From the NCBI GenBank assembly GCA_964059195.1, contig CAXKWD010000004.1:119880043-119944042 (forward strand): DNA of 64,000 nt, read 5' to 3'. Shown piece by piece: positions 8,611 to 50,499 of this stretch. The notes beneath the pieces were generated by a model, which was not told where the DNA came from, made no database searches, and saw only the letters and a program-made list of their open reading frames with translations. The first letter of the stretch is position 1, and the number at the start of each line of letters is the position of its first letter. A program made the position numbers and the translations under genes. The stretch comes from Ectobius pallidus. Its lineage: Eukaryota; Arthropoda; Insecta; Blattodea; Ectobiidae.

Positions 8611-9199
8611 TGGAATTTCCCAAACTGCATCGGAAATGTTGGTGGGAAACACGTAACACTACAGGCTCCTATCGGAAGTTCCAGTGAATATCTTATCTAC
8701 ATAGGTTTCTTCAGTATCGTACTAATGGCAGTGGTTGAAGCAAACTACTGTTTTACCTAGGTCAATGTTAGTTTTTGATGGAGGTGTCTTTGGACATTGT
8801 CTGTTAAAAATGAAAATGGATCAAGCAGTGCTAAACTTACCTGTTGCTAGAAATATACCTGGAATTCAAACCAAGTCACCTTTTGTGTTTGTTGCTGCTG
8901 ATGCCTTTCCTCTTTTACCACACGTCATGAAACCTATTCCTGGACTCCATGTTCAGGGATCAGAAGGAAGATTTTACAATGGAAGACTTAGCAGAGCTAG
9001 GATAGTTGTTGAGAATGCATTCGGAATCTTGTCCATCGTTTTCAGAGTTCTTAGAAAGCCCATGCTTTTTGAGCCGCATGAGGCCATAAAGGTGGTACTA
9101 ACAAGTACGTTACTTCATAACTTTATGATAAAAAAAATTATTAATTTGAATCATATAACCCTGCAGGAACTTTTTATAATGAACAGTTCGGTGAGCTAA
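8611..9199 (+). pseudogene. PIF/Harbinger transposase pseudogene (DDE endonuclease domain)
   Basis: Begins in one frame with WNFPNCIGN, GGKHVTLQAP and FFSIVLMAVVEANY, the hallmark N-terminal half of the DDE_4 domain. It then needs a frame change near 8755 to continue with DGGVFGH, FVAADAFPLLPHVMKPIPG, FYNGRLSRARIVVENAFGIL and STLLHNFM. In the family, the first catalytic Asp lies in the DGKH motif; here it reads VGGKH, so that Asp is lost. The second, in the VDVGAYG region, is damaged by a stop. The ADAFPL Asp and VENAFG Glu remain. The enzyme would excise and insert at 3-bp TWA-like targets together with a MADF/Myb partner, which is present as a fragment at 10610-10937. The N-terminal part upstream of 8611 is not recognisable. 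Confidence 0.85.
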
Positions 9200-12003: not shown

Positions 12004-15000
12004 CGCACGATTCTTTAAGTTCGATAAATCTTGAAACTAACAGTAACGCAATACAGACTAATATATATAGACATAATATTAAAATTACTAAACAATATGG
12101 CTTAAATATACTATACTGGAACGTTCAAAGTCTCACAAATAAACTTGACTATATTACAGTCTTACTAAATGAACACGATGTTCACATATTGTTGGCCGAG
12201 TGCACCGACCTCGGTATTCAGAATACCGCGGTAAAGTTGCTTAGTTTACCCCGGTAAAGTCATACTTTCGTTGCATCGTGCTCGGTTTCGACTTTTACCG
12301 CGGTAAGATGAAAACCGCCCGTGAAGGAGCTGTAAAGTGAGAAAACAGCGGTTTTCTTTCCAAGATGGAGATCAGCGTAATGTATCATATTTATGATATC
12401 TAGGCCAAAAGCTAATTGAACATAAAGAATAATTAGAGACAGGTGGGGTTTATTTGAAGAATGAACGATGGTGCATATCTTTGCAAATACTGTGCTGTAA
12501 CATCGATTGAAATGACCTTCCTTTCTTACCTCAACCAAACCAGGTCCATCGAGTAGGCTAGTGGGCGTAACCACGATTATTACGATTAGTACAGTATTTA
12601 TGGTGTTTTAATTCAAAGGTTGGACTCAAAGGCCTTATATATGCAATATAATATACCATTGTATCCTTATGAACATTTATTACTGAACAATAAGGCAAAA
12701 AATAAATGAAATATGGATAACAGTGGTCCTAGGCCAAATTTAAGTGAATGGCTGCATGCATTACGATATAGCCCGTGTATCGGTATATGTAAGCAATTTA
12801 TCACACCTGCACATATACGAACATAATTATAACAGCCCTTTCTTGGCTATGCACATGATTTTGCACCTAAAATTTCTACTCGTTGTACGGGAATAAAAGC
12901 GAGGCTATGTCGAACTCAGAGCAGAGATTTCGTGGTGTTGCTTTGCCTTGGATTGCACACGTGTGAGAATTATTCTTTAAAACATGAATGTTATTTTATT
13001 GAAATGTACAGACAGGTGGGATCTATTTGAAGAATGAACGATGGTACATATCTTTGCAAATACTGTGCTGTAACATCGATTGAAATGACCTTCCTTTCTC
13101 ACCTCAACCAAACCAGTAGTAGGCGAAACGAACTCATTAAACGATTGGTACAGTATCTATGGTGCTTGAATTCGAAGTATGAATCCAGACGACATATATA
13201 CGCAATATAATATTCCCTTTTATCCTTATGAACATCTTTTTATTGAATAATAAGGGAACAAATACATTGAATTCGGGACCCCAATAGCCTACCAGAGCCA
13301 CCGTGACTGGCAGACGTGCAGGGAGAGAGAGAGAACCTAGCGGCCATGGAAGACACCATCAAAGAAAAATGGATTCGGAGCAGAGTAACAGCAATATTTC
13401 CAAGCATTAGCAAACCGCGGTATTTTCGCAATGGTGCACAGAGATTTTGAGAATACCCCGGTATTACGTTTACCGCGGTAACGAAACGGCTGAGAAAACC
13501 GGAGAATCGTGCACTCGGCCATGTGTATTGTTGAGCACTGGTTGAATGCAGACGATCTAAATCTACTCAGAATTCCAGGATACTACTTATCTGATTCTTA
13601 TTGTCGACCTACCAGCATTATGCATGGAGGCTCAGCAATTTATGTGTGCAATTCACTTCGAACAAGTAAAGTCAGTGTCCCAAATATAAGCTCATTATTT
13701 ACATTTGAAGTTTGCTCTACTTACATACACACCTATGATATCTTATGCGTCTCGCTTTATCGAAGACCTGATAACACCAGGGAGTGCTTTGACTCGTTTC
13801 TAACCAAACTTTATGAGTTCTTAAACAATATCTACATAAGTTACAAGAATAAACATGTAGTTTTAGCTGCAGACTTTAATGTTGATTTTATTGTAAATAG
13901 TATCGAGGTCACAGATCTTTTAAATGTGTTTTATAGTTTTGGTGTTCGTCCTTTGATTCATGAGCCTACAAGGCCTAGTAATGACGGATTAACAGGCACT
14001 TGTATTGATAATGTAACTACCAATATATCTGCGGATAAAATTTATTCTGCTAATGTTGTGCCAACTATAGTATCCGACCATAATGCCATACTTCTTAAAA
14101 CCGATATAGGAAAGTGTGATACTGGTCATAATTCTGAACCAAAACTAAAACGTTCTTTTAATGTGTTAAGTGTCTATTATTTTATATTCTTGATAAAGCA
14201 ATTAAGTTGGATAACAATGTATGGCATAGTTGATCTTAATGAGAAAGCTAACTATTTTATGTCAGTCTTATCAGATGCTGCAGATAAAGCTTTTCCTTAT
14301 ACTATTTTTAAACCTAGACCTGTAGAGAGGGGCAAAGTCAACAAGTGGTATACAGGTGAGCTCCAAACTTTAAAGGAAAGATGTACTTTTTATTATGTAT
14401 TGTATATACAATACGGGATGACAGAATTCAAGAATGCATATAATAAGCTCCGTAATGATTATAAGATCCTGCTCAAGGTCACAAAGATAAACTACTACTC
14501 CAAAATAATAAGTGACTCAAAAAATGCTGCTAATGCTACCTGGTCTGTGATAAAAAATTTATTAAATAACTCTTCTAACCAAAATATGACTGATGTTGAC
14601 TTGGATACTGAGGAAATGAATTCACATTTTATCAATCAAGTTGACGAAGTTGTCAACAGTATCAAAGACAGCGTCAATCCCATAGATTTAATGCATGACA
14701 ATAAAAGTAAACCTTGTAACATCTTCAGCTTTGATCATGTCCTAGTTGAGGAGGTTTATTCTACAATTTTAAAGCTCAGTAATAGTTCTTGTGCTGATGT
14801 TTACAATCTCAACTCTAAAATTTTAAAATTAGCTGCTACGTTTTTATGTGAACCATTAACACATATTTTTAATTCTTGTATTGATAGTGGTATCTTTCCT
14901 GACTCTTTTAAAATAGTTAAAGTTATCCCTATCCACAAGAAGGGATGTAAATCAGATTATTCAAATTACAGACCCATTAGTATTATACCTATTGTGTCGA

Positions 15001-16238
15001 AGACTTTTGAGATGCTGATAAACAAACAGATTATTCAATACTTTGAAAGCAACTTACTGTTTTCAACTAACCAATTTGGATTTCGAGCTGGCCATAGTAC
15101 GGTTGACGCCATAATAGGATTTATTAAGAGAAGCCTAGATGCTTTTGAATGTGGTAAAATCACATGTGGTCGTTTTTTCGACCTCACAAAAGCCTTTGAC
15201 ACAATCTCTCATGAAATTCTTATACGTAAACTTGACTTCTACGGCTTTGACACTAACAGCATCAATTTATTATATTCATATCTATCTGACAGACAGCAAT
15301 CAGTGTATTTAAATGGGAAACAGTCCCACTTCAAGCATGTGAAGTATGGTGTCCCACAGGGCTCTGTTCTGGGACCTGTGTTATTTTTTATATATATAAA
15401 CGATCTTCCTGATTGTATAAGAGATGAATGCCTAGAAACCTATCAATTCGCGGATGATCTAGCCTTGAACATATGTGATGGAAGCAATAATGAATTACAT
15501 AGTAAACTTGAAACAACTTCTATAAAAATACAAAACTTGTGTGACGCTAATAAACTTAGTCTTAATCAAAATAAAACGGTTAATATTAAATTTAGTTTAA
15601 ACAGATCTTCGTACCATGCTGAATCTTCTGTTAAGTTTCTGGGCATTTATCTTGACCCTGATTTAGGATGGAAATCCCATATCAACTATATAACAAGTAA
15701 GATTAGCAAGGGTCTATTTATGCTAAGAGTACTTGGTCATAGTATTAGCAAATCAACTTTGATAACCGTCTATTATAGTCATATATACAGCCACTTAAGT
15801 TATGGAGTACTGCTCTGGGGAAACCATACTTACACCAACAAAATTGTATTACTCCAAAAGAGGGCAATCAGAATAATATGTGGAGCTCCCCCGAGAGCAC
15901 ACTGCAAACCACTATTTATTGAACTTGATATTCTTACCTTCCCTTGTGTATATATTTTTAATTGTCTCAATCATGTAAAGAAGAATATATCTGAATATAC
16001 CCAATGTACATCTCTTCATGGCTATCCTACGCGAAGTAGAAATTATTTATATATCAATAAATGCAAGTATAGTACGACTCAGAATAGCTATGAGGTGATG
16101 TCATTGAAATTATTCAACAGCTTGCCAGAAGTCATAAAGAGAATGCCTGCAAGTAATTTTAAAAGAACGATCAGAAGAGTGCTAACAGCTAATCCTCTCT
16201 ACAGAGTTGAAGACTATTATAAGATTGGATGGTCTTAA
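11937..16238 (+). pseudogene. Retrotransposon ORF2 (endonuclease-reverse transcriptase), split by a DNA transposon
   Basis: Open frame of up to 989 codons once the insertion at 12193-13521 is discounted. It lacks an early ATG, so initiation may depend on ORF1 termination near 12003. The AP-endonuclease domain is cut in two. WNVQSL lies before the insertion; VEHWL, LAADFNVDF (about 13863) and SDHNAIL (about 14077) lie after it. The reverse transcriptase is complete: NYRPISIIP, FFDLTKAFD (Asp at 15180), GVPQGSVLGP (15348) and FADD (15447-15458) keep all three catalytic aspartates. A C-terminal region with CSTTQNSYE-like and NSLPEVIK motifs ends at 16238. The insertion plus one target copy is 1,332 bp, an exact multiple of three, and removing it gives ...HILCIVEHW with no frame damage. 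As it stands the protein would stop inside the insertion. Confidence 0.85.
12193..13521. mobile_element. PIF/Harbinger-like non-autonomous TIR element, copy 1
   Basis: 1,329 bp with ends TGGCCGAGTGCAC and GTGCACTCGGCCA and a 3-bp target duplication TGT (12190-12192 and 13522-13524). A second copy at 32010-50723 has TTA on both sides. 3-bp targets of this type are characteristic of PIF/Harbinger. Subterminal copies of the palindrome TTACCGCGGTAA (near 12228, 12295 and 13473, with variants) could be transposase-binding sites. There is no transposase gene. Two inner segments (about 12430-12720 and 13010-13270) are imperfect duplicates of each other, including the block ATTGAAATGACCTTCCTTTC. It sits inside ORF2 of the non-LTR element. 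Confidence 0.85.
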
Positions 16239-33460: not shown

Positions 33461-33654
33461 CGCGACAGTAGTATCAGCCCCTTTTTGTCTCCCGCCCTTT
33501 GTACCGCGACGCCTCTTCCAGACGCCCCCCGACGCCTTCCAGACGCCCGGCGTCATTATAGTCGATTAAAGAAAGCGAGATGTGCCTTTTCACCCAGTGG
33601 TATTCCTGACTCTTCCCGACGCCTCGTTTAGGAGTTAGGCCCTGAGAACCATTA

Positions 33655-33674
33655 TTCCTGTTACGTAACAGGAA
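33655..33674. repeat. Perfect 20-bp palindrome TTCCTGTTACGTAACAGGAA
   Basis: Recurs exactly at 33814-33833 and in the other arm at 49134-49153 and 49293-49312. Two copies per arm, about 160 bp apart and 190-370 bp from the element ends. They could be protein-binding sites or hairpin nucleation sites. Confidence 0.85.
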
Positions 33675-33894
33675 CAGGATCTATACTTGTGTTGTTTGAT
33701 CCAGACTGTCAGGGGATTCATTTCCAGCATTGTAATTGCGCCCCCTTTCTCGCTGTGCTGTTCCCGAAGCGTCCCGACGCCCTTTTTAGGAGTTAGGCCC
33801 CGAAGAGTCATTATTCCTGTTACGTAACAGGAAGAGATGGCAGCTTAAGGCATCGGTCAAGTTGTAACAGGGATAGATGATTCCCGATTCATCC

Positions 33895-35110
33895 TGACGC
33901 ATAGTTAGGCCGTTTGATCCGACCTAGTTAGGCCCTTTGATCCGGAACGTCATGGTAGTCGATTCGAATAATGTAATTACGCCCTTATACACTAAGCTAT
34001 TCCCGATTCATCCTGACGCATAGTTATGCCGTTTGATCCGATCTAGTTAGGCCCTTTGATCCGGAACGTCATGGTAGTCGATTCGAATAATGTAATTACG
34101 CCCTTATAGACTAAGCTATTCCCGATTCAACCTGACGCATAGTTATGCCGTTTGATCCGACCTAGTTAGGCCCTTTGATCCGGAACGTCATGGTAGTCGA
34201 TTCGAATAATGTAATTACGCCCTTATACACTAAGCTATTCCCGATTCATCCTGACAAACAGTTAAGCCGTTTGATCCGATCTTGTTAGGCCCTTTGATCC
34301 GGATCGTCATGGTAGTTGATTCGAATAATGTAAATACGCCGTTATACACTAAGCTATTCCCGATTCATCCTGACGCCTGTTATTAGGCCGTTTGATCCGA
34401 TCTAGTTAGGCCCTTTGATCCGGAACGTCATGGGAGTCGATTTGAGCAATGTAGTTGTGACCTTATACACTATGCTATTCCCGATTCATCCCGACACCTG
34501 TTAATAGGCCCTTTGGACCAAGGAGACGTTATGGACGTCATGGTAGTCATTTCGAACAATGTAGTTACGCCTTTTAGCACTATGTTATCCATATTCATCC
34601 CGATGCCTGTTATTAGGCCCTTTGGACCAAGGAGACGTTATGGACGTCCTGGTAGTCATTTCGAACAATGTAGTTACGCCTTTTAGCACTATGTTATCCA
34701 TATTCATCCCGATGCCTGTTATTAGGCCCTTTGGACCAAGGAGACGTTATGGACGTCATGGTAGTCATTTCGAACAATGTAGTTACGCCTTTTAGCACTA
34801 TGTTATCCATATTCATCCCGACGCCTGTTATTAGGCCCTTTGGACCAAGGAGACGTTATGGACGTCATGGTAGTCATTTCGAACAATGTAGTTACGCCTT
34901 TTATCACTATTTTATCCATATTCATCCCAAAGACTGTAATTAGGCCCTTTGGACCCAGGAGGCGTTATGGACGTCATGGGAGTCGGTTCGAACAATGTAG
35001 TTATGCCCTCTCGCACTATGCTATCCATATTCATCCCTACGGTTGTAATTAACCCCTCATGACCAATGGGAATGTTGTCAAGTCACGGGAATCGTTTCTG
35101 ACAAAAATGT
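33895..35110 (+). repeat. Tandem arrays of 119-bp and then 109-bp units (left arm)
   Basis: 33895-34500: units of about 119 bp with CGCCCTTATACACTAAGC and GGCCCTTTGATCCGGAACGT. 34500-35110: units of 109 bp with GGCCCTTTGGACCAAGGAGA and CATTTCGAACAATGTAGTTA. The two types share the GGCCCTTTGRNCC core and TCATGGTAGTC, so one derives from the other. Repeated in-frame readings of 70 residues are by-products of the array. The mirror copy is at 47857-49072. Confidence 0.88.
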
Positions 35111-35851
35111 TACGCTCTTTCACACTATGCTATTCCCCGATTCATTCATTCATACACCTTTTACCATTTAAGCCCATTGGTAGAAAATGTGTACGCATAG
35201 AGGCGCTGTTATGCAATTAGGAGGTAGGAGGTAAATAACAAGTGCTCCTACTATACTTACAGATACTGTAAGAGGGACCTTTGATAAAAATTACGTACAA
35301 CATGCCTGTAGAGCGCATTCCCTAACAATGTTTTGTTATTAAAAGATAAATAAGTTTATACTTACATAACCTTTTATTTTTCATCTTCTATACAGCATCT
35401 ATTCTCCTTCCAGATGAACTGTGTTATTATTAACTATATGTAACTGACTGTGTGTAAGGATTAGGAAAACGGTTAAGGTTAAATTTCATTTCAGACCGTA
35501 CAACCTTTTATTGTGTATCATAAGATTGTCACGCTCTTGTGAAATAATGTGTATAAACAAAGGGCTTCACAGTAGTAGTGCTGCATGGTTTATTTCAACA
35601 TACTTGGTTTACAAACACGATTACCGAATGGAATTTCATCACAAGGAAGTGATTGAAACACACACACACATCCGCGTCAGTATTTGTAATGTGTAATCAA
35701 TACATGTATAAAAGAGAATAGTTTTTTTTAACATGTGATCTCATAGACTCTCTATATTTCCTAAGTGTCTATAGCTCTACGTGTGATTGAAAGTGATAGT
35801 GATTCAACTGCTTCTCCTTCCAGAAAAAAACCATGAGCAACAGAGGTATGT
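35111..35851. other. Non-repetitive stretch in the left arm
   Basis: Lies between the tandem arrays and the small gene. No coding motif seen. It holds a (CA)n-like run near 35658 and a TTCTCCTTCCAG motif twice (about 35400 and 35810). Mirror copy at 47116-47856. Confidence 0.5.
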
Positions 35852-35852
35852 T

Positions 35853-36541
35853 TTATTTAACTTCAGGTTTGTTTAAAAACACGTAATGAATATTGTCTAT
35901 GATCCATGACTTTAAAATTAAAACAATTTGTTGTGCACATTTTGCTTCAGGAAAAGTATGAAATTTACAGACAGTAATACATTTAGGTAGAATATTTAAA
36001 ATTTGGACAATTGAAATCAAATAGAACGTAGACCTCAACAGACGGAATAATGTTTTGTAGAAATTGTTTCTTCTGACAACCTTTCACAAATACATGATCA
36101 CAATTGTTGAAAATGTTTCTTACAATATTTCCATGTAACCATAATCTACAAATCCATGATCGTATTTTAATCCATGATGAAAATGTTCTAAGTAATGTTT
36201 TGTCATCTCGTTTACAACACGGTCTTCAGGGCTGTTGAATAATAGATGTACACTGTTTTCACCTTTCAAATCACAAGAAAAAAATTCTTTTACAAAAAAT
36301 TGACCTGTTGATTGTTCGACAAAACCCTGTACGTCTGCAACTCGGCCACCCCTACGATCAAAAGAAAACAATATATCACTAACATAATTCATATGGTTTG
36401 GTCAGTATAAAGTACATAAATCATAACCTTTAGTTCTTTTTCTTTAACATCTAAAGTAATATTCAACACTACTAGTTGTGAGATTGAAACACACCTTGCC
36501 CCATAAGTAGCGTTATTGAATTTCTCAATTATAGATACCAT
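35853..36541 (-). pseudogene. Small intron-containing gene of the palindrome, left arm
   Basis: Mirror copy of the right-arm gene: exon 2 at 36495-36541, exon 3 from 36351 down to the stop at 36120. The frame-shifted continuation runs to 35853. The predicted 92-residue product up to the stop is identical in the two arms, and both frameshifts are shared. They therefore predate the duplication or have been copied between arms by gene conversion. The two genes point towards the ends of the element, away from the loop. Confidence 0.6.
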
Positions 36542-36830
36542 CTGAAAAGAAAAAAGGTATTTAATATAACGTTTTTATGCACTATGTCAACAATAAACTC
36601 TAGCTGATGAGGACTAACAACTAAGTAACAAAATAGTAAAACATCGAAACTGATAGAAATAGGAAAACAAACAAACAAATATGACGTTACTTACTTCGTT
36701 AGTTGTAGGAGAAAAGACAAAGACTATGTTAGAAGAACAGATACTGATGCTGCCGACAAGTATGTAGTCTACAGTATTCACAGAACGACCGATGAAACAG
36801 TGTTTAATGATGGGGACAGTAAAGTCAACC

Positions 36831-36838
36831 TTTTTATA
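36831..36838 (-). promoter_or_regulatory. TATA box of the left-arm gene
   Basis: TTTTTATA on the plus strand (TATAAAAA on the minus), mirror of 46129-46136, with the GTAAGT donor at the matching position (about 36689-36694). Confidence 0.6.
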
Positions 36839-37049
36839 GCGATATTAAGTAACTGGTTCCCCCCTCTTTGAACTTACATTCGTTTCTTGTTTCAAATAGA
36901 TAGACTTAGATGCAGGAATGGGATTTCCTAGGATAGCGTCATAACATATTTTCTCTAAACATTTCATCATATACTATAAATAGATTTAACCCTCTTTCTC
37001 TTCAGAATAACAATAAAACTCAGTCGACAAATGGTGAAACTATGTTATA

Positions 37050-40000
37050 TTCTCCTCTCATACCCTACAGCTATTTATAAATATAATAGTGAAAGTACTT
37101 ACTATCTTCAAGTGATCTTCGAAACCCATGTAGATCAACATGTACCAAATTAATTTGAAAATGTCGACATGTATACTTAAGTTGAAAACGGACAAGCATG
37201 CCTTTTCATACTGTATAAAACACAACTTGTGATTAAAAACTATACTATTATTACTAACATGTACCAAATTAATTTAAAAATGTCGACATGTAAACTTAAG
37301 TCGCTATGAAAACTAAATTATTTATACAAATGTCTTACATGTACAGTACAACTGCTGTGAAAACTAAAATATTTATACAGCTCTTGGTTGAAAACTGACA
37401 ATACGTGCCATTTCATACTGTATAAAACACAACTTGTGATTAAAACAAAAACTGTTTTCCCTTTAGGATGTTGTAACAAAGACCTTGAGAGGATGTCGAC
37501 ATAACATATTTTCTCTAATCATTTCATCATATACTATAAATAGATTTAATCCGCTATCTCTTCATAATAGCAATATAACTCATACTTACATGGTGGTTAA
37601 TGTATACCACAATATGTTGACGTGTTCATGGAAAGAACGTTTGTAAATAATCCCCAAAAAACTATTTATTATTATATTATAAGACACGAGGAAGGTCGAC
37701 AAATGGTGAAACTATGTTATATTCTCGTCTCATAGCCTGGAGCTATCTATAAATATAATAGTGAAAGTATTTGCTAACTTCAAATGATCTTCGAAACCCA
37801 TCTAGTTCAACATGTACAAAATTAATTTGAAAAGTCGACATGTATACTTAAGTCGGTATGAAAACTAAATGATTTATACAAGTTTTGGTTGAAAACTGAC
37901 AAAGCATGCCTTTTCATACTGTATAAAACACAACTTGTGATTAAAAAAAACTGTATAATATTAAATAATCGTAGAAAATATTACTAACATGTACCAAATT
38001 AATTTGAAAATATCGATATGTATACTTAAATCGCTATTAAAACTAAATTATTTATACAAGTCATGGTTGAAAACTAACAAAGCATTCCTTCTCATAATGT
38101 ATAAAACACAACATGTGATTAAAAAAACTGTATAATATTATTTCAATGCAGAAATTATTACTAACATGTACCAAATTAATTTTAAAATGTCTTACTTGTA
38201 CATTACAGTTGGTATGTATAAAACATCTTGTGATTGAAAACGTACAATTTATTCGGATGTAGAAAATATTACTGCTTTTACAACACAACCTGTGATTAAA
38301 AAAACCGTATAATATTATTTAAATGTAGAAATGATTACTAACATGAACCAAATTAATTTGAAAATGTCTTACTTGTACTACAGTTGCTATGAAAGCTAAA
38401 ATATTTATACAAGTCATGGTTGGAAACTGACAATCCGTGCCATTTCATACTGCATAAAACACAACTTGTGATTAAAAAAAACTGTTTTCCCTTTAGCATG
38501 TTGTAACAAAGATCTTGAGTTATCGTTAAGTAAGTAAACAAGTATGACAAACAGCAAATACGTTACGACATAGGATATTTCCCTTGCTACATACCTTCTA
38601 AAAACATTTCCACACCTACTAGAAGGTGTTAAATTAGACCCGAACAAATAGTGAAAAAACGCTGGAAAAAGACCATCAGCAAGCTATGTTTGAACTCGTT
38701 CTGGGGGGAAACTCAGAATTTAAATGTAGAAATTATTACTAACACGTACAGAATTAATTTGAAAATGTCGTCCTTATACACTTAAGTCGCAGTGAAAACT
38801 AAATTAATTATACAAGTCATGGTTGAAAACTGACAAAGCATGTCTTTCCATACTGTATAAAACAGTCCCTGTACACTTAAATCAATATGAAACTAAATTA
38901 TTTACACAAGTCACCGTTGAAAACTGACAAAGCATGCCTTTTCATACTGTATAAAACACAACTTGGGATTAAAAAACTGTAAAAAGTATTTAAGTGTAGA
39001 AATTATTACTAACATGTACCAAATTAGTTTGAAAATGTCGTCCTTGTACACTTAAGTCGCTGTGAAAACTAAATTATTTATACAAGTCATAGTTGAAAAT
39101 TGACAAACCATGTCATTTCATATTGTATAAAACAGTACCTGTACACTAAAGTCGCTATGAAACTAAATTATTTACACAAGTCACGGTTGAAAACTGACAA
39201 AGCATGCCTTTTCATACTGTATAAAACACAACTTGTGTTTAAAAAACTGTATAAAGTATTAAAATGTAGAAATTATTACTAGCATGTACCAAATTAATTT
39301 GAAAATTTCGTCCTTGTACACTTAAGTCGTTATGAAAACTAAATTATTTATACAAGTCAAGGTTGAAAACTGACAAAGCATTTCTTTTCATACTGTATTA
39401 AACACAAATCACGGTGGAAAACTGACAAAGCATGCCTTTTCATACTGTATAAAACACAACTTGTGTTTAAAAAACTGTAATACTTTCTACATATTAATAG
39501 TACTATACACTCTTTAATCACAAGTTGTGCAAAATAATTTAGTTTTCGTATTAACGTGAGTGCAGAAGTGGTAAGTTTTCTTCTAACATTTCCAAATTAG
39601 TTAGGTACAGTTAGTAATATTTTCAACTTTTAGATAATATTATACAGATTGTTTATCCACAAGCCATGAGTTGTAAACGACTGAAGTGTACAAAGAAAAC
39701 ATTTTCGAATTGCTACATTACCTGTTCAAGGAACAAAACATTATGTTACAGACAACTAAAAAACTTTAGAAAAAAATGTGATAATAATAATAATAATAAT
39801 ATAATAATTATCTGGTGGCGCACTCCAGTACATTTTACATCACAGCTAGTTACGTTTTAACCACATATTTCGTTTGATAATATTTTCATGTGTATTCATA
39901 GACTGTGTGAACTGTAAAATACTAGTGCCGTTCTATTTTACCTGACTAAGGACAATGCCAACCACCTTCTGATCACAACTATAAATGAGAAAGTTTACTG

Positions 40001-41220
40001 TTGAGTATAAATAGGTAACATCTTTAGTTTTAACTTCATGCAACTATTGTTAATTAATTTGAAAAAATGTTTACCTTGTACACTTCACCCTCTATGAAAC
40101 TAACTTATTTATACAAGTCATGGATGAAAACAAACAAAAGCGTACCTTTTCATACTGTATAAAACACAACTTGTGATTGAAAATATACAGCTTTATTCAG
40201 ATGTAGAAAATATTAGTGCTTTCACAACACAACTTGTGATTAAAAACTCTATAATATTATTTAAATGTAGAAATTTTTACTAACATGTCTACCTTGCACA
40301 CTTCAGTCGTTATGAAACTAACGTATTTATACAAGTCATGGCTGAACACAGACAAAGCGTACCTTTTCATACTGTATAAAAGACAACTTGTGCTTGAAAA
40401 GGTACAACTTTATTCAGATGTAGAAAATATTAGTGCTTTCTCAACACAACGTGTGATTAAAAACTTTACAATATTATTAAATGTACCAAATTAATTTTGA
40501 AATTGTCTACCTTGTACACTTCCATCGTTATGAAAACTAACTTATTTATACAAGTCATGCATGAAAACCGACAAAGCGTACCTTTTCATACTGTATAAAA
40601 CACAACTGGTGATTGAAAATGTACAACTTTATTCAGATGTAGAAAATATTAGTGCTTTCACAGCACAACTTGTGATTAAAAAACTCTAGCGTGTCTTTTC
40701 GTAGTGTATAAAACAAAACTTGTGATTGAAAACGTACAATTGTATTCAGATGTCAGAAATAATAATGTTATAACAACACAACATGTCGTAGATTAATTGA
40801 AAATGGCATACATGTACACTTCACTTGCTATGAAAACTAAAATAATTATACAACTCACGGTTGAAAACTTACAATGCGTGGCTTTCATCTGTATAAAACA
40901 CAACTTGTGATTAAAATCGCTATGAAAACTATAATATTTATATAAGAACTGTATAAAACACAACTTGTGATTGAAAACGTACAATTGTATTCAGATGTAA
41001 ATAATAATGTTATTACAACCCAACATGTGCCAAATTACTTTGAAAATGGCATACATGTACACTTCACTTGCTATGAAAACTAAAATAATTATACAACTCA
41101 CGGTTGAAAACTTACAATGCGTGGCTTTCATCTGTATAAAACACAACTTGTTATTAAAATCGCCATGAAAACTATATTATTTATACAAGAACTGTATAAA
41201 ACACAACTTGTGATTGAAAT
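37050..41220. repeat. Satellite-like diverged tandem repeats (left inner arm)
   Basis: Built from units of roughly 100-220 bp sharing ACTGTATAAAACACAACTTG, TGATTAAAAA, a TTATTTACAAGTC-like block, GGTTGAAAACTGACAAAGCA and ATGTACCAAATTAATTTGAA. CACAACTTGTG is itself palindromic. Two longer segments with ATGGGTTTCGAAGATCA-like sequence (near 37120 and 37795) are also duplicated. Small open frames across this region are repeat translations. The outer part to 40941 belongs to the palindrome arm; the rest lies in the loop. Confidence 0.8.
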
Positions 41221-42026
41221 TACGCGCGACGAGTTTTTCTTCAATTTCCTCCGAGATAACCTAACCTAACATACCGTAGCCTAACCTAACCTAACCTTTC
41301 CTAACCTAACCTAACATGCCGTAACCTAACCTTTCCTAACCTAACCTAACCTAACCAGAGCAGTGATCCTAACTAACCTAACCTTTCCTAACCTAACCTA
41401 ACCTTTCCTAACCTAACCAAACATACCGTAACATAACCTAACCTAACCTTTCCTAACCTAACCTAACCTAACCTAACGAAAGCGGTGATATAATAAATCG
41501 TACACTATAAGTTGGGTTATGCGACGATTTTTTTTCTTTCCTCCGAGATAACCTAACATACCGTAACCTAACATACCGTAACCTAACATTTCCTAACCTA
41601 TCCTAATCTAACCAAAGCTGTGAACATACCCTAACCTAACTTTTCCTAACCTAACATAGCCTAACCAAAGCTGTGATATAATAAATCTTACACTCTAAAG
41701 TGGGTTCAAGCTTTAAGTGTATGTGAGCCATCTGTTTTCTGTAGTTTCTCGTTATAAAATAAAATTGTACATTTTCAATTCCAAGTTGTGTGTTTATACA
41801 GTATGAAGAGGCAAGCATTGTTAGTTTTCAATCATTAGTTGTTTCATTGTTGTGTGTTTATACGGTATGAAGAGGCAAGCATTGTTAGTTTTCAATCATT
41901 AGTTGTATAAACCACATATTGGGTTGTAATAACATTGTTATTTACAACATCTGAATACAATTGTACGTTTTGAATCACAAGTTGTGTTTTATACAGTATG
42001 AAAAGACACGCTTTGTCAATTCTTGA
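40942..42026. other. Asymmetric loop of the palindrome
   Basis: The arms match up to TATGAAAACTATAATATTTA (left) and its complement (right); between them lie 1,085 bp that are not inverted copies. The edges still contain diverged satellite units. The middle holds the CCTAA repeats. No gene seen. Confidence 0.8.
41259..41668 (+). repeat. Degenerate CCTAA (TTAGG-type) repeats in the loop
   Basis: Strings of CCTAACCTAACC broken by TTTCCTAACC, ATACCGTAACC and short unique pieces, all with the C-rich strand on top. They occur as two related blocks. Each begins after GCGACGA, a T-rich run and CCTCCGAGATAACCTAAC (41226 and 41521) and ends with AAAGCKGTGATATAATAAAT. CCTAA is the complement of the common insect telomere repeat, but the single orientation and interruptions make this an interstitial or derived repeat. 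Confidence 0.8.
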
Positions 42027-45000
42027 ATAAATATTATAGTTTTCATAGCGATTTTAATCACAAGTTGTGTTTTATACAGATGAAAGCCACGCATTGTAAG
42101 TTTTCAACCGTGAGTTGTATAATTATTTTAGTTTTCATAGCAAGTGAAGTGTACATGTATGCCATTTTCAATTAATCTACGACATGTTGTGTTGTTATAA
42201 CATTATTATTTCTGACATCTGAATACAATTGTACGTTTTCAATCACAAGTTTTGTTTTATACACTACGAAAAGACACGCTAGAGTTTTTTAATCACAAGT
42301 TGTGCTGTGAAAGCACTAATATTTTCTACATCTGAATAAAGTTGTACATTTTCAATCACCAGTTGTGTTTTATACAGTATGAAAAGGTACGCTTTGTCGG
42401 TTTTCATGCATGACTTGTATAAATAAGTTAGTTTTCATAACGATGGAAGTGTACAAGGTAGACAATTTCAAAATTAATTTGGTACATTTAATAATATTGT
42501 AAAGTTTATAATCACACGTTGTGTTGAGAAAGCACTAATATTTTCTACATCTGAATAAAGTTGTACCTTTTCAAGCACAAGTTGTCTTTTATACAGTATG
42601 AAAAGGTACGCTTTGTCTGTGTTCAGCCATGACTTGTATAAATACGTTAGTTTCATAACGACTGAAGTGTGCAAGGTAGACATGTTAGTAAAAATTTCTA
42701 CATTTAAATAATATTATAGAGTTTTTAATCACAAGTTGTGTTGTGAAAGCACTAATATTTTCTACATCTGAATAAAGCTGTATATTTTCAATCACAAGTT
42801 GTGTTTTATACAGTATGAAAAGGTACGCTTTTGTTTGTTTTCATCCATGACTTGTATAAATAAGTTAGTTTCATAGAGGGTGAAGTGTACAAGGTAAACA
42901 TTTTTTCAAATTAATTAACAATAGTTGCATGAAGTTAAAACTAAAGATGTTACCTATTTATACTCAACAGTAAACTTTCTCATTTATAGTTGTGATCAGA
43001 AGGTGGTTGGCATTGTCCTTAGTCAGGTAAAATAGAACGGCACTAGTATTTTACAGTTCACACAGTCTATGAATACACATGAAAATATTATCAAACGAAA
43101 TATGTGGTTAAAACGTAACTAGCTGTGATGTAAAATGTACTGGAGTGCGCCACCAGATAATTATTATATTATTATTATTATTATTATCACATTTTTTTCT
43201 AAAGTTTTTTAGTTGTCTGTAACATAATGTTTTGTTCCTTGAACAGGTAATGTAGCAATTCGAAAATGTTTTCTTTGTACACTTCAGTCGTTTACAACTC
43301 ATGGCTTGTGGATAAACAATCTGTATAATATTATCTAAAAGTTGAAAATATTACTAACTGTACCTAACTAATTTGGAAATGTTAGAAGAAAACTTACCAC
43401 TTCTGCACTCACGTTAATACGAAAACTAAATTATTTTGCACAACTTGTGATTAAAGAGTGTATAGTACTATTAATATGTAGAAAGTATTACAGTTTTTTA
43501 AACACAAGTTGTGTTTTATACAGTATGAAAAGGCATGCTTTGTCAGTTTTCCACCGTGATTTGTGTTTAATACAGTATGAAAAGAAATGCTTTGTCAGTT
43601 TTCAACCTTGACTTGTATAAATAATTTAGTTTTCATAACGACTTAAGTGTACAAGGACGAAATTTTCAAATTAATTTGGTACATGCTAGTAATAATTTCT
43701 ACATTTTAATACTTTATACAGTTTTTTAAACACAAGTTGTGTTTTATACAGTATGAAAAGGCATGCTTTGTCAGTTTTCAACCGTGACTTGTGTAAATAA
43801 TTTAGTTTCATAGCGACTTTAGTGTACAGGTACTGTTTTATACAATATGAAATGACATGGTTTGTCAATTTTCAACTATGACTTGTATAAATAATTTAGT
43901 TTTCACAGCGACTTAAGTGTACAAGGACGACATTTTCAAACTAATTTGGTACATGTTAGTAATAATTTCTACACTTAAATACTTTTTACAGTTTTTTAAT
44001 CCCAAGTTGTGTTTTATACAGTATGAAAAGGCATGCTTTGTCAGTTTTCAACGGTGACTTGTGTAAATAATTTAGTTTCATACCGATTTAAGTGTACAGG
44101 GACTGTTTTATACAGTATGGAAAGACATGCTTTGTCAGTTTTCAACCATGACTTGTATAATTAATTTAGTTTTCACTGCGACTTAAGTGTATAAGGACGA
44201 CATTTTCAAATTAATTCTGTACGTGTTAGTAATAATTTCTACATTTAAATTCTGAGTTTCCCCCCAGAACGAGTTCAAACATAGCTTGCTGATGGTCTTT
44301 TTCCAGCGTTTTTTCACTATTTGTTCGGGTCTAATTTAACACCTTCTAGTAGGTGTGGAAATGTTTTTAGAAGGTATGTAGCAAGGGAAATATCCTATGT
44401 CGTAACGTATTTGCTGTTTGTCATACTTGTTTACTTACTTAACGATAACTCAAGATCTTTGTTACAACATGCTAAAGGGAAAACAGTTTTTTTTAATCAC
44501 AAGTTGTGTTTTATGCAGTATGAAATGGCACGGATTGTCAGTTTCCAACCATGACTTGTATAAATATTTTAGCTTTCATAGCAACTGTAGTACAAGTAAG
44601 ACATTTTCAAATTAATTTGGTTCATGTTAGTAATCATTTCTACATTTAAATAATATTATACGGTTTTTTAATCACAGGTTGTGTTGTAAAAGCAGTAATA
44701 TTTTCTACATCCGAATAAATTGTACGTTTTCAATCACAAGATGTTTTATACATACCAACTGTAATGTACAAGTAAGACATTTTAAAATTAATTTGGTACA
44801 TGTTAGTAATAATTTCTGCATTGAAATAATATTATACAGTTTTTTTAATCACATGTTGTGTTTTATACATTATGAGAAGGAATGCTTTGTTAGTTTTCAA
44901 CCATGACTTGTATAAATAATTTAGTTTTAATAGCGATTTAAGTATACATATCGATATTTTCAAATTAATTTGGTACATGTTAGTAATATTTTCTACGATT

Positions 45001-45920
45001 ATTTAATATTATACAGTTTTTTTTAATCACAAGTTGTGTTTTATACAGTATGAAAAGGCATGCTTTGTCAGTTTTCAACCAAAACTTGTATAAATCATTT
45101 AGTTTTCATACCGACTTAAGTATACATGTCGACTTTTCAAATTAATTTTGTACATGTTGAACTAGATGGGTTTCGAAGATCATTTGAAGTTAGCAAATAC
45201 TTTCACTATTATATTTATAGATAGCTCCAGGCTATGAGACGAGAATATAACATAGTTTCACCATTTGTCGACCTTCCTCGTGTCTTATAATATAATAATA
45301 AATAGTTTTTTGGGGATTATTTACAAACGTTCTTTCCATGAACACGTCAACATATTGTGGTATACATTAACCACCATGTAAGTATGAGTTATATTGCTAT
45401 TATGAAGAGATAGCGGATTAAATCTATTTATAGTATATGATGAAATGATTAGAGAAAATATGTTATGTCGACATCCTCTCAAGGTCTTTGTTACAACATC
45501 CTAAAGGGAAAACAGTTTTTGTTTTAATCACAAGTTGTGTTTTATACAGTATGAAATGGCACGTATTGTCAGTTTTCAACCAAGAGCTGTATAAATATTT
45601 TAGTTTTCACAGCAGTTGTACTGTACATGTAAGACATTTGTATAAATAATTTAGTTTTCATAGCGACTTAAGTTTACATGTCGACATTTTTAAATTAATT
45701 TGGTACATGTTAGTAATAATAGTATAGTTTTTAATCACAAGTTGTGTTTTATACAGTATGAAAAGGCATGCTTGTCCGTTTTCAACTTAAGTATACATGT
45801 CGACATTTTCAAATTAATTTGGTACATGTTGATCTACATGGGTTTCGAAGATCACTTGAAGATAGTAAGTACTTTCACTATTATATTTATAAATAGCTGT
45901 AGGGTATGAGAGGAGAATAT
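41747..45920. repeat. Satellite-like diverged tandem repeats (right inner arm)
   Basis: Inverted counterpart of 37050-41220. Next to the loop, a ~57-bp unit with GTATGAAGAGGCAAGCATTG is directly duplicated (about 41790-41905) and has no mirror on the left. Confidence 0.8.
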
Positions 45921-46128
45921 AACATAGTTTCACCATTTGTCGACTGAGTTTTATTGTTATTCTGAAGAGAAAGAGGGTTAAATCTATTTATAGTATATGA
46001 TGAAATGTTTAGAGAAAATATGTTATGACGCTATCCTAGGAAATCCCATTCCTGCATCTAAGTCTATCTATTTGAAACAAGAAACGAATGTAAGTTCAAA
46101 GAGGGGGGAACCAGTTACTTAATATCGC

Positions 46129-46136
46129 TATAAAAA
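46129..46136 (+). promoter_or_regulatory. TATA box of the right-arm gene
   Basis: TATAAAAA in the context CGCTATAAAAAGG. Transcription would start near 46157-46165 (CATCATTAAAC), giving a short non-coding first exon that ends at the GTAAGT donor at 46273. Confidence 0.6.
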
Positions 46137-46159
46137 GGTTGACTTTACTGTCCCCATCA

Positions 46160-46272
46160 TTAAACACTGTTTCATCGGTCGTTCTGTGAATACTGTAGAC
46201 TACATACTTGTCGGCAGCATCAGTATCTGTTCTTCTAACATAGTCTTTGTCTTTTCTCCTACAACTAACGAA
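46160..46272 (+). other. Predicted non-coding exon 1 of the right-arm gene
   Basis: Bounded by the TATA box upstream and a consensus donor GTAAGT at 46273-46278. The intron (46273-46425) ends in a pyrimidine tract and TTTTCAG immediately before the start ATG. The start of this exon is inferred from the TATA position. Confidence 0.5.
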
Positions 46273-46425
46273 GTAAGTAACGTCATATTTGTTTGTTTGT
46301 TTTCCTATTTCTATCAGTTTCGATGTTTTACTATTTTGTTACTTAGTTGTTAGTCCTCATCAGCTAGAGTTTATTGTTGACATAGTGCATAAAAACGTTA
46401 TATTAAATACCTTTTTTCTTTTCAG

Positions 46426-47114
46426 ATGGTATCTATAATTGAGAAATTCAATAACGCTACTTATGGGGCAAGGTGTGTTTCAATCTCACAACTAGTAGTG
46501 TTGAATATTACTTTAGATGTTAAAGAAAAAGAACTAAAGGTTATGATTTATGTACTTTATACTGACCAAACCATATGAATTATGTTAGTGATATATTGTT
46601 TTCTTTTGATCGTAGGGGTGGCCGAGTTGCAGACGTACAGGGTTTTGTCGAACAATCAACAGGTCAATTTTTTGTAAAAGAATTTTTTTCTTGTGATTTG
46701 AAAGGTGAAAACAGTGTACATCTATTATTCAACAGCCCTGAAGACCGTGTTGTAAACGAGATGACAAAACATTACTTAGAACATTTTCATCATGGATTAA
46801 AATACGATCATGGATTTGTAGATTATGGTTACATGGAAATATTGTAAGAAACATTTTCAACAATTGTGATCATGTATTTGTGAAAGGTTGTCAGAAGAAA
46901 CAATTTCTACAAAACATTATTCCGTCTGTTGAGGTCTACGTTCTATTTGATTTCAATTGTCCAAATTTTAAATATTCTACCTAAATGTATTACTGTCTGT
47001 AAATTTCATACTTTTCCTGAAGCAAAATGTGCACAACAAATTGTTTTAATTTTAAAGTCATGGATCATAGACAATATTCATTACGTGTTTTTAAACAAAC
47101 CTGAAGTTAAATAA
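46426..47114 (+). pseudogene. Small intron-containing gene of the palindrome, right arm
   Basis: Exon 2 is 46426-46472, beginning at the ATG right after TTTTCAG. A 143-bp intron (GTGTGT...CGTAG) follows, then exon 3 from 46616. The splice joins in phase (AG|G) and gives 92 residues to the stop at 46845. Visible motifs: DVQGF at 22-26, FVKE at 35-38, HLLF at 51-54, FHHGL at 73-77. Clearly related sequence continues past the stop: a different frame gives VFVKG (46874-46888) and FNCPNF, then the exon-3 frame resumes with CKFHTF, KCAQQ and ILKSWI to a stop at 47112. So two opposite frameshifts interrupt a protein of about 180 residues. From memory, this order of motifs marks an uncharacterised family common in arthropods. 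The acidic D-x-Q/E start and later KG and Cys/His motifs hint at an exonuclease-like fold, but that is speculative. AATAAA is at 47110-47115. Confidence 0.6.
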
Positions 47115-47115
47115 A
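47110..47115 (+). terminator. Poly(A) signal of the right-arm gene
   Basis: AATAAA overlapping the last in-frame stop of the frame-shifted C-terminal segment. The mirror copy is at 35852-35857. Confidence 0.5.
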
Positions 47116-47856
47116 ACATACCTCTGTTGCTCATGGTTTTTTTCTGGAAGGAGAAGCAGTTGAATCACTATCACTTTCAATCACACGTAGAGCTATAGAC
47201 ACTTAGGAAATATAGAGAGTCTATGAGATCACATGTTAAAAAAAACTATTCTCTTTTATACATGTATTGATTACACATTACAAATACTGACGCGGATGTG
47301 TGTGTGTGTTTCAATCACTTCCTTGTGATGAAATTCCATTCGGTAATCGTGTTTGTAAACCAAGTATGTTGAAATAAACCATGCAGCACTACTACTGTGA
47401 AGCCCTTTGTTTATACACATTATTTCACAAGAGCGTGACAATCTTATGATACACAATAAAAGGTTGTACGGTCTGAAATGAAATTTAACCTTAACCGTTT
47501 TCCTAATCCTTACACACAGTCAGTTACATATAGTTAATAATAACACAGTTCATCTGGAAGGAGAATAGATGCTGTATAGAAGATGAAAAATAAAAGGTTA
47601 TGTAAGTATAAACTTATTTATCTTTTAATAACAAAACATTGTTAGGGAATGCGCTCTACAGGCATGTTGTACGTAATTTTTATCAAAGGTCCCTCTTACA
47701 GTATCTGTAAGTATAGTAGGAGCACTTGTTATTTACCTCCTACCTCCTAATTGCACAACAGCGCCTCTATGCGTACACATTTTCTACCAATGGGCTTAAA
47801 TGGTAAAAGGTGTATGAATGAATGAATCGGGGAATAGCATAGTGTGAAAGAGCGTA

Positions 47857-49072
47857 ACATTTTTGTTAGAAACGATTCCCGTGACTTGACAACATTCCCA
47901 TTGGTCATGAGGGGTTAATTACAACCGTAGGGATGAATATGGATAGCATAGTGCGAGAGGGCATAACTACATTGTTCGAACCGACTCCCATGACGTCCAT
48001 AACGCCTCCTGGGTCCAAAGGGCCTAATTACAGTCTTTGGGATGAATATGGATAAAATAGTGATAAAAGGCGTAACTACATTGTTCGAAATGACTACCAT
48101 GACGTCCATAACGTCTCCTTGGTCCAAAGGGCCTAATAACAGGCGTCGGGATGAATATGGATAACATAGTGCTAAAAGGCGTAACTACATTGTTCGAAAT
48201 GACTACCATGACGTCCATAACGTCTCCTTGGTCCAAAGGGCCTAATAACAGTAATCGGGATGAATATGGATAACATAGTGCTAAAAGGCGTAACTACATT
48301 GTTCGAAATGACTACCAGGACGTCCATAACGTCTCCTTGGTCCAAAGGGCCTAATAACAGGCATCGGGATGAATATGGATAACATAGTGCTAAAAGGCGT
48401 AACTACATTGTTCGAAATGACTACCATGACGTCCATAACGTCTCCTTGGTCCAAAGGGCCTATTAACAGGTGTCGGGATGAATCGGGAATAGCATAGTGT
48501 ATAAGGTCACAACTACATTGCTCAAATCGACTCCCATGACGTTCCGGATCAAAGGGCCTAACTAGATCGGATCAAACGGCCTAATAACAGGCGTCAGGAT
48601 GAATCGGGAATAGCTTAGTGTATAACGGCGTATTTACATTATTCGAATCAACTACCATGACGATCCGGATCAAAGGGCCTAACTAGATCGGATCAAACGG
48701 CTTAACTGTTTGTCAGGATGAATCGGGAATAGCTTAGTGTATAAGGGCGTAATTACATTATTCGAATCGACTACCATGACGTTCCGGATCAAAGGGCCTA
48801 ACTAGGTCGGATCAAACGGCATAACTATGCGTCAGGTTGAATCGGGAATAGCTTAGTCTATAAGGGCGTAATTACATTATTCGAATCGACTACCATGACG
48901 TTCCGGATCAAAGGGCCTAACTAGATCGGATCAAACGGCATAACTATGCGTCAGGATGAATCGGGAATAGCTTAGTGTATAAGGGCGTAATTACATTATT
49001 CGAATCGACTACCATGACGTTCCGGATCAAAGGGCCTAACTAGGTCGGATCAAACGGCCTAACTATGCGTCA
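47857..49072 (-). repeat. Tandem arrays of 109-bp and 119-bp units (right arm)
   Basis: Mirror of 33895-35110; same units in inverted order. One spacer between 109-bp units near 48250 differs from the left arm (AGTAATCGG against the complement of CCGATGCCT). Confidence 0.88.
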
Positions 49073-50499
49073 GGATGAATCGGGAATCATCTATCCCTGT
49101 TACAACTTGACCGATGCCTTAAGCTGCCATCTCTTCCTGTTACGTAACAGGAATAATGACTCTTCGGGGCCTAACTCCTAAAAAGGGCGTCGGGACGCTT
49201 CGGGAACAGCACAGCGAGAAAGGGGGCGCAATTACAATGCTGGAAATGAATCCCCTGACAGTCTGGATCAAACAACACAAGTATAGATCCTGTTCCTGTT
49301 ACGTAACAGGAATAATGGTTCTCAGGGCCTAACTCCTAAACGAGGCGTCGGGAAGAGTCAGGAATACCACTGGGTGAAAAGGCACATCTCGCTTTCTTTA
49401 ATCGACTATAATGACGCCGGGCGTCTGGAAGGCGTCGGGGGGCGTCTGGAAGAGGCGTCGCGGTACAAAGGGCGGGAGACAAAAAGGGGCTGATACTACT
49501 ACTCGCGACACTTCATTATTACGCTCATATTATTGATAAATAATAATAATAAAATATAATATTTGGAAGAAAGCAGTTCGTTCGTTGAAAATACCACTGT
49601 TCGAAATAGTACCCACTGGTGTTTAGAATTGTACCTACTGCGGAACATTTTCGAACGATATTCTGGAAATGAAAGATTGATTGCCATGACCAATTTTACA
49701 GCTGTTTGACTTTCATATTTTTGTGCCAACTTTGTGATTACAATACAGTTGAACTTATCTTATGTTTATTGTGTTCATAAGATAAGAATATTTGTGAAGT
49801 GTTCGAAAATGTACCACCTTACCCTATGAACATTTATTATTATTACTGAACAATAAGGCAACAAATAAATGAAGTATGGAAAACCAGTGGTCCTAGGCCA
49901 AATTTAAGTGAATGGCTGCATGCATCACGATATAACCTGTGCATCGGTATATAGGTTGTGTAATCAATTTATCATACCTGCATATCATATCATACCTGCA
50001 CATAATTATAACAGCCTTTTCATGGCTATGCTCATGATTTTGCACCTAAAATTTCTACTAGTCGTACGGGAATAAAAGTGAGGCTATGTCGAACTCAGAG
50101 AAGAGATTTCATGGTGTTGCTTTGTCTTGGATTGCACACGTGTGAGAATTATTCTTTAAAACATCAATGTTATTTATTTTCTTGAAATGTACAGACAGGT
50201 GGGATCTATTTGAAGAATGAACGATGGTACATATCTTAGCAAATACTGTGCTGTAACATTGATTGAAATGACCTTCCTTTCTCACCTCAACCAAACCAGT
50301 AGTAGGCGAAACCAACTCATTTCACGATTGACACAGTATCTACGGTGCTTGAATTCGAAGTTTGAATTCAGACGACATATATACGCAATATAACATTCTC
50401 TTTTATCCTTATGAACATCTTTTTATTGAATAATAAGGCAACAAATAAATTGAATTTGGAAAACCAATAGCCTAGGCGAGCCACCGTGACTGGCAGACG

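Follow-up and report, generated by a model that had tools for sequence, protein, structure and literature searches.

A palindromic element with Polinton termini in Ectobius pallidus, probably one of a helper-dependent lineage

What kind of element is a 16-kb DNA sequence that is almost entirely palindrome? Such a sequence lies in the 64,000-nucleotide stretch of the Ectobius pallidus genome analysed here (the window; assembly GCA_964059195.1, contig CAXKWD010000004.1, positions 119,880,043 to 119,944,042 of the forward strand). The element, referred to as copy E1, is a palindrome of 16,034 bp plus one extra terminal trinucleotide and occupies positions 33467–49503 of the window (Table 1). A first-pass annotation, made from the letters of the window, had described arms of about 7.5 kb pairing with a constant coordinate sum (82967–82968) and ending in AGTAGT between two CGCGAC copies. 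Alignment of one arm with the other over 7,475 bp bore this out, with 8 mismatches and 1 gap (identity 99.88%), a similarity for which chance is no issue. The ends were also as described, the right end having one extra AGT unit.

The terminal inverted repeats (TIRs) of Polintons begin 5′-AG. According to the available excerpt of PMC8969392, these elements are 15–40 kb long, have 6-bp target-site duplications (TSDs) and end in TIRs that measure hundreds of nucleotides. The window element resembles Polintons/Mavericks (Polintoviruses) in its 6-bp TSD, its AG-starting TIRs, a length in the range of 15–17 kb and a terminus found on full Polintons of this genome. It differs in that the repeats take up ∼93% of the element and that none of the helper genes, such as those for family B DNA polymerase (PolB) and integrase, was found in working form. 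The longest stop-to-stop frame lying wholly within the element has 96 aa (49 frames of at least 60 aa overlap it), and the three frames tested had no Pfam match. Of a protein-primed PolB there is a frameshifted relic, with EGVKLDP in frame +2 and SKLCLNSFWG in frame +1, oriented inward as in the full Polinton E3; no integrase gene was found. Nothing in the window copy looks functional as coding sequence. With no working PolB or integrase gene found, the element is a non-autonomous derivative rather than a Polinton proper.

The 2.12-Gb assembly holding the window was searched with the terminal 201 bp of the element, which gave 82 matches. Scoring covered 40 of the 342 first-look candidates; the loci listed are therefore the copies most similar to the window's own end. 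The 40 scored matches resolved into 22 loci, namely 11 palindromes, eight Polinton-type copies and three partial Polintons (C13:9.90M, C3:130.66M and C6:50.23M) with no mate in the stretch examined. Both ends and the interior were covered for 11 loci, including that of the window. Of six more end pairs, E16 was covered whole and the other five through their ends and inner pieces, two of them also over their full length; the remaining five loci were ends first seen singly and then extended piecewise. All family results below refer to these 22 loci, from one genome and selected by similarity to the window end. Ten palindromes measure 14.6–16.7 kb and one, E16, 3.3 kb. Nine of the long copies were covered from end to end (E1, E2, E7, E8, E9, E10, E11, E13 and E15), as was the whole of E16; E12 was judged palindromic from its inner pieces (882 bp with a 100% inverted match; 99.9% like E9). 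The Polinton-type copies are E3–E6, E14, E17, E18 and E22, with E14, E18 and E22 assigned through piece matches on both sides and E17 through one side.

Gene annotation of the Polintons was made on copy E3, whose TIRs are 1,293 bp long and 99.5% alike. An open reading frame (ORF) of 1,376 aa matches DNA_pol_B_2 (PF03175; E 7.3e-45) and one of 355 aa matches the integrase domain rve (2e-11) together with chromo (3e-6). A packaging ATPase is indicated by a Pox_A32 match (E 3e-6) in an ORF cut at the stretch end, and a protease by a Peptidase_C5 (adenovirus endoprotease) match with an E of 0.0012 and 19.1 bits, slightly under the curated cut-off of 21.3. With regard to a double jelly-roll major capsid protein, two ORFs, of 450 and 240 aa, had no Pfam match (at E 10) and no PHROGs match; a PDB sequence search with the 450-aa ORF gave none either, and viral-contig searches with this ORF and with PolB returned no relative. 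Copies E4–E6 are 98.4–99.1% identical to E3 in the main aligned blocks. About 1.06 kb inside each end, the E3 TIRs (L011 near 2061, L012 near 7218) contain a second terminus-like sequence, TAGTAGTATCAAGACC..., in the opposite orientation to the true terminus; it also occurs in the E4, E5 and E6 stretches and in E16. In E4 (C3:112.04M; L013:912–1000) the terminal 89 bp are tandemly duplicated at one end.

Other copies with these ends and 6-bp targets, and full Polintons carrying the AGTAGTATCAG terminus that is present at both ends of the window element, are what the first-pass annotation had suggested looking for. Both exist in the same genome; the Polintons have 6-bp TSDs and E3 encodes PolB and integrase. 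The outcome that the annotation had named as refuting, a lack of further copies with these ends and targets, was thus not what the search gave. At the 19 loci where both ends could be compared, a TSD of at least 6 bp was found in 17, palindromes and Polintons alike. It abuts both ends exactly in 14 loci (E2–E11, E14, E15, E17 and E22; in E4 it lies outside the outer copy of the duplicated end), and in E1, E12 and E16 one end is 2–3 bases longer, the addition being an AGT unit in E1 and, as read here, in E16. An empty-site test based on repeats that flank the element in the window yielded no clean unoccupied copy.

The same 19 loci show ten types of 24-bp terminus, four of which occur in both palindromes and Polintons. 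The two 24-bp termini of E8 are clearly different, yet there are zero arm-to-arm substitutions in the next 5.7 kb; the Polinton E22 also has two types, and the ends of E2 differ by one base. The simplest explanation would be an exchange of termini between palindromes and Polintons, with some types perhaps shared by common descent. Jump-back initiation by a protein-primed polymerase, as in adenovirus, would give AGT-unit slippage at an AGTAGT terminus, and by analogy may account for the extra units seen here.

We consider it probable that the window element is a non-autonomous satellite of a Polinton and belongs to a propagating, helper-dependent palindromic lineage. Because full Polintons have the same terminus, and other palindromes the same ends and 6-bp targets, the first-pass suggestion of a non-autonomous class that would borrow Polinton machinery is well supported. 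The satellite would be a linear, self-complementary DNA of ∼16 kb with the Polinton replication and integration terminus at both ends and no working helper gene found in it. It would originate when a polymerase engaged in protein-primed strand-displacement synthesis from the PolB-side end jumps back to the complementary strand, so that the product has the same end twice. With two origins, it could be replicated by the terminal protein and PolB of the helper and inserted by the helper integrase, with a 6-bp target duplication. In each cycle the displaced strand could form a hairpin whose stem is 7 kb long, so that mismatches between the arms would be corrected while the loop and its edge stay asymmetric. 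The last 24 bp would be swapped among co-replicating elements, and a constraint near the helper length, most simply capsid filling, may hold propagated copies at 14.6–16.7 kb, as the length statistics given below suggest. Concerted evolution of the arms, near-helper length and a lineage with several arm types are findings beyond the first-pass annotation.

Concerted evolution was assessed at informative sites from arms aligned across copies, with gapped columns left out, in sets that overlap. The two arms were concordant at 135/135 sites in E9, E10 and E13 (2,957 columns), at 76/76 in E8 and E15, and at 37/37 in the first 5.7 kb of E1, E2, E7 and E11 (type I; three multi-state columns set aside). 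A seven-copy alignment gave 53/53 and a nine-copy alignment 67/68, and the Polinton TIRs taken with E16 were concordant at 14/15 two-state informative sites. Divergence of the core between lineages is up to about 9%, and the arms within a copy differ over 0.07–0.41% of their aligned length.

A hairpin stage with stem repair would explain these concerted arms. They are equally expected if the arms were homogenised after insertion, by chromosomal gene conversion from arm to arm as in the palindromes of the primate Y chromosome, and not in a replicative hairpin. However, E9 and E10, at two separate loci, have in common both the point at which arm identity gives way to asymmetry and the 17 asymmetric sites; as far as that point their arms were therefore already identical when they inserted, and the homogeneity is older than the insertion. 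Differences private to one arm also persist (15 in E2), and the Polinton TIRs have evolved in concert likewise. As a replacement for the hairpin, gene conversion is thus unlikely, and it is possible as an additional contributor.

The origin of the palindromes is most clearly seen in the 3.3-kb copy. The left 1,749 nt of E16 are contiguous with the PolB-side end of the Polinton E4 at 99.2%, extending ∼460 nt past the TIR, after which the sequence reverses and leaves a 161-bp loop between arms that are 99.7% alike. To judge by its sequence, E16 is what a polymerase snapping back onto its own product would leave, a visible snap-back. The first-pass annotation had offered, as its second option, a head-to-head dimer of an ∼8-kb linear DNA. 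As a description this stands, being the same structure in other words; for the way in which it arises, E16 shows a snap-back route from one Polinton end.

The arms of E8 and E15 also contain PolB-side DNA past the TIR, up to 2.6–2.8 kb of the Polinton. No nucleotide match to the non-PolB side beyond the TIR was found in the eight copies compared, or in two more in a later comparison. Across the palindromes, Polinton end DNA makes up 0.4–2.9 kb of the arm, and in the window type the part in common with the Polinton is the outer 413 bp (88%) plus the PolB relic. Derivation of both arms from a single parent end is seen in E16 and in the outer arms of E8 and E15; for the window copy the PolB relic bears on it, and a related core in E9 contains a relative of a gene from the other side. 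The jump-back is seen in E16, has support from the outer arms in two long copies, and we infer it for the other long palindromes.

The nine long copies covered from end to end have a core in common, which includes an interrupted relative of a 174-aa protein, P0001. This unnamed protein, without a Pfam match, is the sole database relative of the shared arm gene, and its gene gave only a weak 36-residue match (E 0.02) against E3–E6. Relative to P0001, the gene is interrupted by a stop or frameshift in all ten long palindromes, the call resting in E13 on a match beginning at residue 63 and in E15 on one stop near the start, and we judged a coding role unlikely for this reason. As the shared core has no nucleotide match in the Polintons, the long copies appear to be one lineage with replaced ends and not fresh fold-backs. 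For the long copies, an origin by simple folding-back of the present-day Polinton was rejected on the same ground, since beyond the outer arm neither E3 nor E4 matches the core at the nucleotide level.

These data also bear on whether every palindrome could be an independent defective product of a Polinton, inserted once and without a lineage of its own. E16 is exactly such a product, and near-identical arms within each copy would fit. Against this stand the core shared by nine long copies without E3 nucleotide match, and the grouping of the copies into types with stepwise divergence (E1/E2/E7/E11 and E9/E10/E12). Loops are also shared, by E1, E7 and E11 and partly E8, and separately by E9 and E10. 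For the family as a whole, we regard a series of one-off snap-backs as distinctly improbable.

Foldback (FB) elements have long inverted arms, internal tandem repeats and little or no coding content, with family-specific ends and target duplication length. An unrelated transposon of this type, mobilised by another transposase and with acquired similar ends, would resemble the window element in its long arms and internal tandem repeats. It would be expected to have other ends and another target duplication length, whereas the palindromes have Polinton ends: four types of 24-bp terminus are the same in full Polintons, the arms include 0.4–2.9 kb from a Polinton end, the TSD is 6 bp long and there is a PolB relic. 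We consider such an origin very improbable indeed. An assembly artefact, whether a wrongly assembled inverted duplication or long reads folded back where an adapter was missing, could yield perfect palindromes but has negligible probability, and was rejected together with chance, since the flanks differ, a 6-bp TSD bounds the insertion, eleven loci have the structure, and the arms carry private differences around non-palindromic loops.

Two other origins were considered and rejected. A chromosomal inverted duplication (a Y-type palindrome) is at odds with the transposon-like boundaries, many loci having a 6-bp TSD together with shared termini. A telomere fusion, considered because of the TAACC loop, is at odds with the lack of the TAACCTAACC motif in three of the seven palindromes scanned and with its occurrence on a single strand in E1. 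Tracts of TAACCTAACC lie in the central parts of the other four (E1, at window positions 41257–41666, E7, E8 and E11). The pentamer of the loop tracts is the same as that of the (TTAGG)n seen at 1 of 10 contig ends examined.

The lengths of the palindromes are close to those of the Polintons. The ten long palindromes span 14,611–16,720 bp (mean 15,659, standard deviation 623), and five Polintons (E3–E6 and E14; E17 at 21.3 kb, E18 and E22 being excluded from the mean) have a length of 16,544 ± 153 bp, the values for E12 and the Polintons being taken from match coordinates and accurate to within 2 bp. Over five lineages, which are few in number and of our own grouping, the distance from end to core varies by more than 1 kb and that from core to centre varies oppositely (r = −0.98); on permutation, 2 of 120 pairings were as tight in sum. 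For nine copies, E12 not included, r was −0.90. Since the outer and inner arm lengths compensate, total length looks constrained. Given the protease and ATPase of the helper, capsid filling would be the simplest cause; shared descent, or a requirement of replication or excision, would also account for it.

More tentatively, the family may be the counterpart, in an animal genome, of a satellite virus: long-lived, near-gene-less, self-complementary genomes of 15–17 kb that form a hairpin in each cycle, use a Polinton origin and integrase, and are kept close to the helper length by being packaged in the helper capsid. We rate this as a possibility somewhat short of an even chance. Should this be true, the length and the compensation between arm parts would provide genomic evidence of particle formation by a metazoan Polinton. 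The viral nature of Polintons was argued in 2014 from capsid genes, as set out in the available part of PMC4028283. Derivatives free of helper genes that hold near-helper length while their parts change would give an independent and testable handle on particle formation.

Several observations weigh against a propagating Polinton satellite as we have described it. The first concern the helper and the size constraint: neither Pfam nor PHROGs, nor a PDB sequence search with the 450-aa ORF, recognised a capsid gene in E3; size is not needed for insertion, as the integrated E16, the lone short palindrome in the sample, demonstrates; and the 21.3-kb E17 and the end duplication of E4 blur the helper length. 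Two loci, the palindrome E13 and the Polinton E18, have no TSD. Arm concordance is broken at one core site and one TIR site, the 17 asymmetric sites in the innermost ∼190 bp of the E9 and E10 arms were inherited by both copies, and E7 and E8 have tandem duplications that are apparently unequal between the two arms. For the long copies, neither E3 nor E4 gives a nucleotide match to the arm core beyond the outer 0.4–2.9 kb. In addition, adjoining the P0001-like gene in the E9 arm is a sequence that resembles the C-terminal 84 residues of the E3 212-aa ORF at ∼40% (E 1e-10), with one stop; the match in E8 is weaker (E 6e-4). This ORF lies near the non-PolB end of E3, and with the PolB relic in E1 pointing to the other end, the long-copy core may come from either end of a Polinton.

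‘Gene-less’ is not strict for the family either. In E8 (C1:96.20M) a 121-aa frame (L021:7585–7947) contains a BIR (inhibitor of apoptosis) domain with an E of 1.8e-21, possibly a captured anti-apoptosis gene, and the P0001-like gene of E15 has the one stop only. The other E8 frames, up to 154 aa, had no convincing Pfam match among those tested. Family members other than the window copy may thus carry cargo.

Among known systems, the symmetric defective genomes of adenovirus and the palindromic derivatives of yeast killer linear plasmids are protein-primed linear DNAs that become inverted dimers of one end. To our knowledge they do not occur as integrated, sequence-diverged, long-lived families. 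Adeno-associated virus (AAV) is a parvovirus and replicates in another way, primed by its inverted terminal repeats. The closest documented parallel to our palindromes are its snapback subgenomes, described in the available excerpt of PMC8235507 as defective interfering particles that are self-complementary, have one parental end twice, are symmetric or looped, and replicate with help. They are described there as populations in virions, whereas the present family lies at many chromosomal loci. Teratorn, a herpesvirus–piggyBac fusion, is likewise mobile virus-derived DNA with long inverted repeats, but according to the accessible part of PMC6431247 has ∼90 further genes and its own transposase. 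In the open-access literature searched, as far as its texts were available and with Repbase outside its coverage, no palindromic or all-TIR Polinton derivative was found.

In this family, snap-back replication, the concerted evolution of 7-kb arms and the sharing of termini between dependent and autonomous elements are naturally recorded, and near-perfect palindromes of 14–16 kb are present in an assembled genome. If the palindromes are transcribed, one may speculate that the resulting hairpin RNAs could contribute to silencing of the helper by small RNAs.

Table 1. Features of the window element E1 and its target site (positions in the window)
Feature	Position	Strand	Basis or remark
Left target-site duplication, CGCGAC	33461..33466	.	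end comparison
Left palindrome arm, 7,475 bp, starts AGTAGTATCAGCCCC	33467..40941	+	99.88% vs right arm
Outermost ∼413 bp, also present in this genome's full Polintons (88% to E3 TIR)	33467..33879	+	sequence comparison
Tandem repeats of 119, 109 and 327 bp, left arm	33880..35133	+	mirrored at 47926–49087, right arm
Frameshifted, broken copy of P0001-like (174-aa protein) gene	35877..36368	-	element 2902–2411; mirror ∼46599–47090, right arm
Degenerate tandem repeats, 51- to 270-bp, most of inner arm, extending into loop	37266..41219	+	
Family B DNA polymerase relic, inward-reading	38622..38714	+	tblastn E=2e-6, Polinton PolB C-terminal query; mirrored in right arm
Loop, non-palindromic centre, 1,085 bp	40942..42026	.	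arm alignment
Degenerate (TAACC)n loop tracts	41257..41666 (41257–41477 + 41549–41666)	+	
Right palindrome arm, 7,474 bp	42027..49500	-	arm alignment
Extra AGT unit, right end (ACT on + strand)	49501..49503	-	end comparison
Right target-site duplication, CGCGAC	49504..49509	.	end comparison

Three further copies have features of their own. The 14.6-kb palindrome E2 (C5:89.09M) has a spacer of only about 55 bp. E12 has a third, inner terminus match ∼1.1 kb inside its left end (C12:1309556–1309754). The 21.3-kb Polinton-type copy E17 (C6:56361144–56382437) possibly contains a nested insertion, and its left inner piece was unmatched among the stretches compared. Elsewhere in the window there are a DDE_Tnp_4 fragment (8735–9199) and a 909-aa ORF for an endonuclease/reverse transcriptase of the long interspersed nuclear element (LINE) type (13509–16238).

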